Below are positions 8,550-34,359 of a stretch of DNA of 35,390 nucleotides, piece after piece. The position numbers and the translations under genes were made by a program. The notes beneath the pieces were generated by a model, which had not been told where the DNA came from, made no database searches, and was given only the letters and a program-made list of their open reading frames with translations. The first letter of the stretch is position 1. Every line of letters begins with the position of its first letter. This DNA is from an uncultured Anaerolineae bacterium (lineage in GTDB: Bacteria; Chloroflexota; Anaerolineae; JACIWP01): assembly GCA_938049385.1 (NCBI GenBank), contig CALIBQ010000028.1:1-35390 (forward strand), read 5' to 3'.

Positions 8550-8577
8550 ATTATAGCATACCTGGCCAGAGGGGCAA
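8550..8577 (-). promoter_or_regulatory. Sigma70-type promoter of the DUF362-polyferredoxin operon
   Basis: On the minus strand TTGCCC (8577-8572), a 16-base spacer and a perfect TATAAT (8555-8550) preceded by TGC (extended -10) lie 37 bases upstream of the DUF362 start. This would drive the five-gene operon down to 3704. Confidence 0.7.
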
Positions 8578-8600
8578 CCATGCCCAAGTGTGCCTGGCGG

Positions 8601-8744
8601 TTTATGGAATTTCTTTTATTTCCGCAACCGTCTTGGAGTCGGGTGGTACATCATGATGATCGGAGGATGCTGTCTCCATCCCGCACCTCGCCTGGCGCTG
8701 AAGCACCAGGCTCATGGTGCCAAGCCCCGCCGGGGCTTCGCTCC
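8601..8744 (+). repeat. Dispersed structured repeat family 1 (copy E)
   Basis: This element of about 144 bp is repeated on the opposite strand at 33657-33806 with high similarity along its length. It contains two consecutive hairpins: a 22-base near-palindrome at 8690-8711 (GCCTGG...CCAGGC), identical to the other copy, and AAGCCCC-GCC-GGGGCTT (8721-8737). The other copy differs in the loop of the second hairpin but keeps the stem. It is non-coding and abuts a response-regulator fragment. It fills much of the 370-bp gap between DUF362 and the Fe-S gene. Confidence 0.75.
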
Positions 8745-8745
8745 A

Positions 8746-8880
8746 TACGTTGGCTATGCGGATGACCGTCTGGCCGCGGAGGAAGTGGCGGCCGGCCAGG
8801 CGGCCTTCCTTTCCAAACCGTTCACGACCGCCCAACTGGCGCGCAAGGTGCGCGCAGTGCTGGACGGCAGGCTGTCATGA
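8746..8880 (+). pseudogene. C-terminal fragment of a response-regulator receiver domain
   Basis: About 42 residues in an open frame (GYADDRLAAEEVAAG, then AAFLSKPFTTAQLARKVRAVLDG) match the end of CheY-like receiver domains, including the conserved Lys-Pro of the SKPF motif. The N-terminal two thirds, with the phospho-accepting Asp, are absent. Upstream sequence in the same frame is repeat copy E, so the gene was cut at its 5' side next to the repeat. It stops at 8880, one base before the convergent Fe-S gene. It is not expected to be functional. Confidence 0.7.
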
Positions 8881-33505: not shown

Positions 33506-33534
33506 ATTGTAGCACAGGAGGGCCGGCGGGGCAA
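33506..33534 (-). promoter_or_regulatory. Promoter of the S41-S41-smpB operon
   Basis: Minus-strand TTGCCC (33534-33529), 17-base spacer and TACAAT (33511-33506) with TGC before it (extended -10), about 43 bases upstream of the second S41 gene's ATG. Confidence 0.65.
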
Positions 33535-33552: not shown

Positions 33553-33632
33553 CGCGCCTGGCGGCCGAAGCCACGGCAACAACTGCGAAGCTTGCGCAGG
33601 CTTCGCGAAGTCGACGCAGGCAGGCAGTTTGC
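33553..33632 (-). repeat. Dispersed repeat family 2 (copy C, inverted)
   Basis: The reverse complement matches 2591-2670: AAACTGC, CTGCGTCGACTTCGCGAAG and GCCGTGGCTTCGGCCGCCAGG align with copy B at about 80% identity by eye. The central palindrome CTTCGCGAAG is perfect here. Confidence 0.7.
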
Positions 33633-33653
33633 CGGCGGCTGGAAGCCGCCGGC
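33631..33653. repeat. Perfect hairpin linking the repeat copies
   Basis: GCCGGCGGCT, a GGA loop and AGCCGCCGGC form a perfect 10-bp stem between repeat copies C and F. No T-run follows, so it is probably part of the repeat mosaic and not a terminator. Confidence 0.6.
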
Positions 33654-33656
33654 TTA

Positions 33657-33806
33657 GGAGGCGAAGCCCCGCAGGGGCTTGGCACCGTAAGCCTGGTGCT
33701 TCAGCGCCAGGCGAAGTGCAAGATGGAATGGGGCCACAGCGTCTTCGAATCATAGTGCTGTGCCGCCCCAACCCCAAGACTGTTGCGGGAATAAAATTCC
33801 CATAAG
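33657..33806 (-). repeat. Dispersed structured repeat family 1 (copy F, inverted)
   Basis: The reverse complement aligns over its whole length with 8601-8744. It holds the AAGCCCC-GCA-GGGGCTT hairpin (33664-33680) and the near-palindrome GCCTGG...CCAGGC (33691-33712), identical to the other copy. The rest is diverged but alignable, including a shared TTATGG-AATTT end. Confidence 0.75.
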
Positions 33807-33808
33807 CC

Positions 33809-33890
33809 GCGACAGCATCTGCGAAGTCGGCACAGGCCGGCTTCGCAAACACAGCCGCCGTTTCAACTACCGAGCTTTTTTAACACCTCA
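33809..33890 (-). repeat. Dispersed repeat family 2 (copy D, partial and rearranged)
   Basis: GCGAAGTCGGCACAGGC and GTTTCAACTACC match the reverse complement of copy B (2584-2615). TTTTTTAACACCTCA (plus strand) then matches the direct end of copy B, so the copy is rearranged. It ends 5 bases before the tmRNA -35 box. Confidence 0.55.
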
Positions 33891-33894
33891 CATC

Positions 33895-33923
33895 TTGCTT
33901 TTTCGCTGGAAAGGCAGTATAAT
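33895..33923 (+). promoter_or_regulatory. tmRNA promoter
   Basis: TTGCTT (33895-33900), 17-base spacer and a perfect TATAAT (33918-33923), placed 14 bases before the mature tmRNA 5' end. Confidence 0.85.
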
Positions 33924-33937
33924 ATAGGTGTCATCAT

Positions 33938-34355
33938 GGGGATGCACGGATTCGACGGGGAAGGCTGGTCACGGATGGCAAGCCGAGGTGCTCATCCTCG
34001 TTAATCCTGAGCAAAACAAACAAGTGCCAAAAACACTGTAAAGCCGGTGTTTGCGTTCCCCAAGATGGCCGCGAGCGTCGCTCTCGCTGCCTAATCCGAG
34101 GGTGAACCGACGCCTCAGTCACCAACAAGAGTGACTGCGTCCACCCCGTCCTCTCCTCGTCGGGATGGGAGTGGGCGTGAGAGCAGGCGAGGTGCGGATG
34201 GAGGGACGCCGATATCCCCATCCTAAGACCTATCGGCTGGCCTGATGACCCTGTGTCAGTCCGGTGCCGTCAGGCGAGATCCAAAGACTGACGAAGCTTG
34301 TACAACCGTCCGTGGCCGAATTCTTCGGACGCGGGTTCGATTCCCGCCATCTCCA
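33938..34355 (+). ncRNA. ssrA: Transfer-messenger RNA (tmRNA)
   Basis: One-piece tmRNA. The 5' end GGGGATGCACGGATTCGACGGGG pairs with CATCTCC (34348-34354) in a 7-bp acceptor stem. The T arm is GCGGG-TTCGATT-CCCGC, and the discriminator A is at 34355. The encoded next bases are CCT, so the 3' CCA must be completed by nucleotidyltransferase. The tag frame opens after an in-frame TGA, at GCA 34011 (AKQTSAKNT...) or at the later GCC 34026 (AKNTV...). It ends ASVALAA-TAA (34092-34094), giving 27 or 22 residues. The VALAA end is the usual ClpXP-type degradation signal. Pseudoknot-rich sequence follows the tag. It works with SmpB (30421-30903). It has its own promoter and terminator. Confidence 0.95.
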
Positions 34356-34359
34356 CCTG

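Follow-up and report, generated by a model that had tools for sequence, protein, structure and literature searches.

A many-copy family of mosaic hairpin elements, apparently mobile and often found near predicted promoters, in an Anaerolineae genome

The 145-bp repeat that occurs twice in the window, the whole 35,390-nucleotide stretch of DNA analysed here (contig C28 of a 3.37-Mb assembly in 85 contigs), is a module of a composite, many-copy, lineage-specific mobile family with about fifty copies in its own genome. For the GH77 protein of the window the best matches, at 57-60%, come mostly from MAGs labelled Chloroflexi or Anaerolineales, with Cyanobacteria and others mixed in at lower ranks, which suggests a Chloroflexota, perhaps of the Anaerolineae. 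The explanation I regard as probable is that the family consists of lineage-specific, non-autonomous mosaic elements, inserted upstream of promoters by a DDE-type transposase, with hairpins probably handled, now or once, by a Y1 (IS200-type) transposase. Its copy number, mosaic structure, end repeats, duplication signal, promoter spacing and intergenic location are visible in the sequence itself.

A sequence-only reading of the window had reported two copies in inverted orientation that align along their length, and BLAST agrees, aligning 8597-8741(+) with 33661-33810(-) at 77% (E = 1.4e-26). The identical 22-base near-palindrome that it described is present in both copies, as is its second hairpin, AAGCCCC-loop-GGGGCTT, which keeps its stem while the loop varies. 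The copies and their surroundings are as follows.

8550..8577 (-): promoter-like site of a DUF362 gene, TTGCCC at 8577-8572 and TATAAT at 8555-8550, read from sequence
8592..8744 (+): copy 1, comprising the 5' module, hairpin A at 8690-8711, a spacer and an AAGCCCC/GGGGCTT hairpin at about 8722-8738; hairpin B is missing
8690..8711 (+): hairpin A, the 22-base near-palindrome GCCTGGCGCTGAAGCACCAGGC, identical at 33691-33712(-)
8745..8880 (+): short coding-like remnant directly after copy 1, by eye the end of a response-regulator receiver domain
33506..33534 (-): promoter-like site of an S41 peptidase gene, TTGCCC-N17-TACAAT, lying 21 bp beyond copy 2 on the side away from the tmRNA gene
about 33556..33889 (-): composite element of copy 2, with a degenerate end repeat, REP-like modules, the 145-bp repeat, hairpin B and a second REP-like module
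33661..33810 (-): portion of copy 2 that aligns with copy 1 (BLAST)
33875..33889 (+): degenerate end repeat of copy 2, CTTTTTTAACACCTC as against CTTTTTCAACACCCTC
33895..33923 (+): promoter-like site 5' of the tmRNA gene, TTGCTT-N17-TATAAT, by eye, 5 bp beyond the degenerate end repeat of copy 2
33938-34358: tmRNA gene, tag AKNTVKPVFAFPKMAASVALAA

Copy 1 opens with a 9-base REP-like head, GCCTGGCGG (8592-8600), and has no end repeat within 450 bp, even with up to 3 mismatches allowed; the -35 box of the DUF362 promoter-like site lies 14 bp from its edge. The composite element of copy 2 has the tmRNA promoter-like site on one side, with its -35 box 5 bp away, and the S41 site on the other, with its -35 box at 21 bp. 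The remnant beside copy 1 matches Pfam Response_reg at E = 0.21, below the cut-off, and its resemblance to a CheY-like response regulator is a by-eye lead only. Two further places in the window belong to the family: at positions 1-59 a further element is truncated by the start of the contig, leaving its right end, in which GGCTTCAGCCGCCAGGC is the REP-like hairpin and CTTTTCAACACCCTC the end repeat, and positions 2581-2667 hold a REP-like inverted pair, GCCTGGTAGTTGAAACTGC ... GTGGCTTCAGCCGCCAGGC.

Rather than only two copies, the genome contains at least 42 BLAST matches to the repeat (40 of 90 first-look candidates scored), and the 22-base hairpin has 43 genomic sites at ≤2 mismatches (control 0). 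For further analysis 50 core copies were defined as the rows with E < 1e-6 among 79 BLAST rows, loci under two ids being merged by coordinates; the 29 rows dropped comprise 28 weaker ones, for the most part opposite-strand readings of hairpin B, and a single weak row, C78:8629, that looks like a true copy. The claim that the hairpin cores are better conserved than their flanks holds across the family: 34 of the 42 matches cover the hairpins only (start at query position ≥85), at 83-95% identity. The 145-bp unit is real, though in many copies the element extends further, and its 5' half is optional: just 6 of the 42 matches contain that module at length. In most copies the core runs in the order hairpin A GCCTGGYGCTGAAGCRCCAGGC, spacer TTACGGTGCC, the AAGCCCC-NNN-GGGGCTT hairpin, spacer CGCTTCCTAA and hairpin B GCCGGCGGCTTCCAGCCGCCGGC, and hairpins are at times inverted in place, with loop TTCA for TGAA or GGAA for TTCC. 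The core is embedded in mosaics with a REP-like 19-mer, GCCTGGCRGYTGAARCYGC, which has 177 genomic sites at ≤1 mismatch. Sixteen of the 50 core copies, copy 1 included, lack both an end repeat and a REP-like head in their vicinity; these must be remnants, or else form a second class whose right arm is different. Some loci carry a double hairpin, GCCTGG..CCAGGTTCATGAACCTGG..CCAGGC and variants, in which hairpin A is doubled head to head around TTCATGAA:

L028 near 1473-1522: double hairpin
L053 near 1473-1522: double hairpin
L056 near 1501-1550: double hairpin

With genes called from codon usage for this analysis, 43 of the 50 core copies overlap genes by less than 10% of their length, 3 by 10-50% and 4 by at least 50%, as against a coding share of 82% in the same stretches. 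Among gaps of at least 60 bp, those with a core lie between divergent genes in 22 cases, tandem genes in 19 and convergent genes in 2; those with an end repeat only number 11, 12 and 3, respectively, and those with neither 16, 42 and 6.

Many mosaics end in a 16-bp inverted repeat, GAGGGTGTTGAAAAAG / CTTTTTCAACACCCTC, found at 86 genomic sites at ≤1 mismatch (control 0). At that stringency an end repeat lies within 450 bp of 21 of the 50 core copies, compared with 2.5% expected from genome-wide density; a looser limit of ≤3 mismatches over the same distance (30 of 50) was set aside, since random places in the same stretches give 38.8%. The stretches read amount to about 0.36 of the 3.37 Mb and were partly picked for holding the end repeat. 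Within them 51 bounded elements of 82-414 bp were delimited, allowing ends with up to 4 mismatches and excluding nested end pairs from the target-duplication and edge-promoter counts. Their outer flanks agree at ≥5 of 6 bases in 17 of 51, versus 0.6% of cross-element flank pairs, and 4 of 51 have perfect 7-mer flank duplicates, versus 0.04%; no perfect 8- or 9-mer duplicate occurs among the 51, and in 34 a clear 6-bp duplication is absent. The bounded elements thus bear signs, at the level of sequence, of 6-7 bp target-site duplications. A short fixed target duplication is a mark of DDE-type transposases, and the inverted-repeat ends with their 6-7 bp duplications, together with the promoter distance and the broken transposase gene described below, point to such an enzyme for the composite elements. 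Short and non-coding, with terminal inverted repeats and signs of a target-site duplication, the elements share these features with MITEs.

The ends are also placed in a particular way relative to predicted promoters, defined here as TTGACA-N16-18-TATAAT with up to 3 mismatches. Among 115 ends scored in the stretches read (≤2 mismatches to the end repeat), 55 have an outward-facing sigma70-like site within 40 bp, compared with 5.15 in 100 shuffles, and 60 have no promoter-like site within that distance. The -35 box starts 10-12 bp outside 37 of the 115 ends (mean of 100 shuffles 0.38, largest 3). Seen from the bounded elements, 37 of 50 show a site facing outward no more than 110 bp from an edge (shuffled flanks 11%) and 9 of 50 one facing inward; of the core copies with a facing end, 14 of 30 show a spacing of 9-13 bp. 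The window copies are off the 10-12 bp peak, copy 1 at 14 bp and copy 2 at 5 and 21 bp. Information in the flanks is at most 0.09 bit per position, except at outside positions 11-13 and 35-36, so that the promoter is not apparently part of the repeat. The bounded elements resemble MITEs that have inserted a set distance upstream of promoters, and the near-fixed distance hints that a mobile element found its targets via the cell's transcription machinery.

The S41 promoter-like site occurs without an element in both congeners, G001 and G002 (the G002 stretch ends inside the -10 box), and the DUF362 site occurs without one in G002, G001 having no close DUF362 homologue. When the congeners are aligned over both window loci no homology extends upstream beyond the promoter, so the S41 and DUF362 loci are not clean empty sites. 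The family itself is nearly confined to its own genome. No core match was found in the two same-genus genomes (14 of 52 and 14 of 65 candidates scored); the REP-like 19-mer has 1 and 2 sites in them and at most 3 in each of 20 other genomes, congeners included, and the end repeat (≤1 mismatch) has 0 to 5 sites in each of those 20. The exact pattern of hairpin A plus spacer has no match in 84,980 species genomes, a set from which the own genome may be absent. Among the literature matches listed, neither work on REPs in Chloroflexi or MITEs in Anaerolineae, nor work on IS1182 and promoters, on MITEs upstream of promoters or on subclasses with REPs since 2018, contained a recognisable description of the family. 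The lack of a core match in the congeners, like the position of the Y1 gene between family palindromes and of a broken DDE gene within a matching end, both described below, is likewise visible in the sequence.

A candidate for the DDE-type enzyme came from another member of the class, G019, in which an element with the end GAGAGTGTTGAAAAAG holds a gene for DUF772 + DDE_Tnp_1, of IS5/IS1182 type. The gene is split in one of its two copies (L327, L328), a single end being seen at each, and one of the copies lies, by eye, 14 bp from a promoter-like site. Within the stretches read, pieces of the G019 gene match one place in the own genome, C8:26951-27652, at 58% and 46% identity, inside the following feature.

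C8:26764-27790 (L096 1765-2790): broken element of IS5/IS1182-like type, its left end matching that of the MITEs

The end at C8:26764 is GAGGGTGTTGGAAAAG, with a -35 box 12 bp outside it (TTGACA-N17-TATAGT). A DUF772 frame starts about 140 bp inside this end, stops, and is followed by a DDE_Tnp_1 piece; the gene is broken by the internal stop and has lost its 3' part. A degenerate opposite end lies near C8:27790, and the element has no evident target duplication and no second copy in the stretches read. The C8 and G019 genes fall below every listed NCBIfam family cut-off, as split or broken genes would. What appears to be a broken relative of the helper transposase is thus present in the own genome. 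No intact DDE transposase between matching ends was seen in the stretches read, and a possible 2.65-kb end pair, C25:109437 and 112073, encloses no ORF recognised by eye as a transposase. ISDol1, with duplications of 6-7 bp, was considered as the family and dropped, the literature matches listed having given no support for it. Insertion sequences of IS5/IS1182 type are not known to show promoter spacing.

The sequence-only reading had looked elsewhere for the source of mobility, comparing the repeats to REP/BIME elements spread by RAYT transposases. The RAYT idea has partial support: many-copy intergenic palindromes are indeed present, and the one Y1 gene has sister palindromes on both sides. 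A conventional RAYT is not supported. A PF01797 profile search of the own genome found one Y1/HUH gene (protein P0001), with a complete palindromic module in one flank and a degenerate module in the opposite flank. These are sister modules of the family, the 145-bp repeat's own core being absent from the flanks. P0001 reaches 74.2 bits with the NCBIfam IS200/IS605 model (cut-off 55) but only 21.2 bits with REP_Tyr_transpos (cut-off 80), and its motif YIELQKQHH fits Y---Q--HH, not Y---NP. Y---Q--HH is given as the signature of TnpAY1 subclass 1.2 in the available text of PMC6006769. It is common to 23 of the 28 proteins inspected among 32 matches, P0001 included. P0001 does not pass as a canonical RAYT.

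No Y1 homologue was found in the two congeners, which likewise lack the repeats, and 85 of 199 genomes of the class have one. The hairpin GTCGGCCTNCGCCGAC occurs in 50 of the 199, the reversed pattern at most twice per genome. A Y1 match is present in 18 of the 24 genomes with at least 10 such hairpins versus 67 of the 175 others (one-sided Fisher p = 0.0007, kinship not corrected; p = 0.0012 without the own genome); thresholds of 1, 5 and 20 hairpins give p = 0.009, 0.001 and 0.006. Of 48 Y1 loci, 8 have GTCGGCCTNCGCCGAC (≤1 mismatch, 300 bp) on both sides, 2 on a single side and 38 on neither, and near windows hold it in 17 of 89 cases versus 4 of 123 far windows. With 8 of 48 loci flanked on both sides and 38 on neither, the link between Y1 and hairpin concerns only part of the family. 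Three loci from relatives in the class, L245, L248 and L303, show arrays of GTCGGC..GCCGAC hairpins around Y1 genes, with up to 21 in 3.4 kb.

Could the Y1 transposase alone have spread all copies via their hairpins, the inverted-repeat ends being further REP modules? The single Y1 gene between sister palindromes would fit, as would REP-like pairs without a visible end repeat (L264, for example), the two-sided hairpins at 8 of 48 Y1 loci and the enrichment of Y1 in hairpin-rich genomes. On the complement strand GTAA or GTGA stands just 5' of hairpin A in most copies, 1-2 bases off the GTAG tag; GTAG and CGTC themselves, however, are absent from the 5 bases preceding hairpin A in all 50 core copies. 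This account is further opposed by the 6-7 bp duplications at the end repeats, as IS200-type single-strand transposition is not known to make target duplications, by ends at promoter spacing and by the DDE transposase gene inside a matching end. I consider it unlikely. The stronger evidence is for MITEs of DDE type inserted at promoter spacing, and a DDE-type transposase explains the ends better than the RAYT idea does; as one engine out of two, a transposase that reads hairpins is plausible.

On the explanation preferred here, the family would consist of mosaics of GC-rich hairpins, many of them bounded by GAGGGTGTTGAAAAAG. A DDE-type transposase, probably of IS5/IS1182 type, would recognise this end, insert the bounded elements and make the 6-7 bp target duplications. 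Insertion would be guided to a position about 10-12 bp upstream of a sigma70-type -35 box, possibly via RNA polymerase or the upstream promoter region. The REP/REPIN-like inner hairpins probably are, or were, handled as single-stranded DNA by a Y1 transposase of subclass 1.2. I infer that either enzyme may have acted on the elements, that recruitment to promoters may occur and that transcription may be affected. The most specific version, a two-engine element in which a promoter-spacing IS5/IS1182 DDE transposase, perhaps contacting RNA polymerase, is joined by a subclass 1.2 Y1 enzyme working on the REP-like hairpins, is one I advance only tentatively, and I would not yet bet on it.

The sequence-only reading had also suggested selection for structure, and a structured RNA or cis-regulatory leader whose fold is under selection was considered as an alternative. 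Folded as single strands, both copies are more stable than their dinucleotide shuffles (z -3.0 to -5.1), with a modest advantage for the complement of the strand first read, and stable predicted folds, kept stems and location beside promoters would suit an RNA. The alignment used to look for covariation contains 39 of the 50 cores, 38 with a recognisable hairpin B and hairpin alignment start, plus copy 1. A double change in stem pair 35-49 and the occurrence of pair 7-16 as both T-A and C-G are in favour, as is a covariation score matched by only 4 of 500 shuffles, which is the only one of five measures to be high and one that, by the tool's own warning, related sequences can raise without structure. 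Paired cells stand at 92.5% versus 92.3% in shuffles (157 of 500 as high), however, and pairs changed on both sides number 4 versus 2.6 (55 of 500 as high), so that substitutions roughly ignore pairing and the suggested selection is not borne out. Covariation is weak. Wobble mismatches show no strand preference with pair 7-16 set aside (26 vs 35). An RNA on one strand was considered because pair 7-16 has a C.A mismatch that would read G.T on the opposite strand; it was rejected, as the remaining pairs show no such signal. In Rfam only the tmRNA reaches its gathering score in the window; relaxed thresholds yield sub-threshold matches only, such as Acido-Lenti-1 at 18.5 bits vs 37. The window copies and the promoter-spaced elements, moreover, lie upstream of the promoter and hence outside a leader, and the congeners have no core match. 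An RNA under selection is very improbable; the stems would have been kept because the copies are young and the hairpins serve a mobile element.

It is hardly credible that the copies arose by segmental duplication long ago and have been homogenised by gene conversion, with no transposition involved: mosaic junctions and hairpins flipped in place would be compatible with it, but the flanks of the copies are unlike one another, the lack of long shared flanks speaking against duplication of segments, and there are target duplications and a near absence from the congeners.

A MITE family with dozens of promoter-spaced ends offers a natural data set on how a transposase finds promoters, and ssrA and the S41 peptidase gene are among the genes that have copies upstream. 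For the Y1 transposases of subclass 1.2, for which the available text of PMC6006769 reports no partner, the palindrome beside some of the genes is a candidate substrate in vitro. Were the two-engine reading true, insertion at a set distance from promoters would extend outside the Mutator group, and subclass 1.2 would gain its first REP-like partner.

Among known systems, REP/REPIN/BIME elements with their RAYTs resemble the family in being short intergenic palindromes, often inverted pairs, in many copies, and in having a single-copy Y1 gene between copies (available portions of PMC3733652, PMC6006769 and PMC3116915). They differ in that the Y1 protein here has the IS200-like subclass 1.2 signature, with no GTAG/CGTC tag before hairpin A, and in that many copies here are enclosed in elements that have inverted-repeat ends and target duplications. 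TnpAY1 subclass 1.2 itself shares Y---Q--HH, low copy number and the lack of typical IS200 ends in the flanks; the available text of PMC6006769 places it mostly in Cyanobacteria and Bacteroidetes and gives no REP association, whereas genes with the signature lie, in some cases in other genomes here, between repeated palindromes. Bacterial MITEs such as Correia/NEMIS and ERIC are likewise short, non-coding and intergenic, with inverted ends and near genes (PMC10969869 and PMC3733652, in the parts available), but the elements here carry REP-like hairpin modules and a sharp promoter spacing. Correia elements bring their own promoter (same portions of PMC10969869 and PMC3733652), whereas here the promoter is outside the element; for bacterial MITEs in general the available text of PMC10969869 names an intergenic preference and no such promoter spacing.

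The closest likeness in promoter spacing is to the TnGBS/ISLre2 and ISKra4 Mutator-type (p-MULT) elements, which insert at a fixed distance upstream of sigmaA -35 boxes, on both sides in the case of the ISKra4 type, and share a terminal C with the family (available text of PMC3942029). According to the same text, the distance for TnGBS and related ISs is 15-17 bp, versus 10-12 bp here, target duplications are 8-9 bp, versus 6-7 bp, and end repeats are 18-39 bp, versus the 16 bp defined here. The broken transposase found in the stretches read differs as well, being of DUF772/DDE_Tnp_1 (IS5/IS1182) type. With the IS5/IS1182-type ISs, DUF772 + DDE_Tnp_1 are shared by the broken C8:26764 gene and by the gene in G019.
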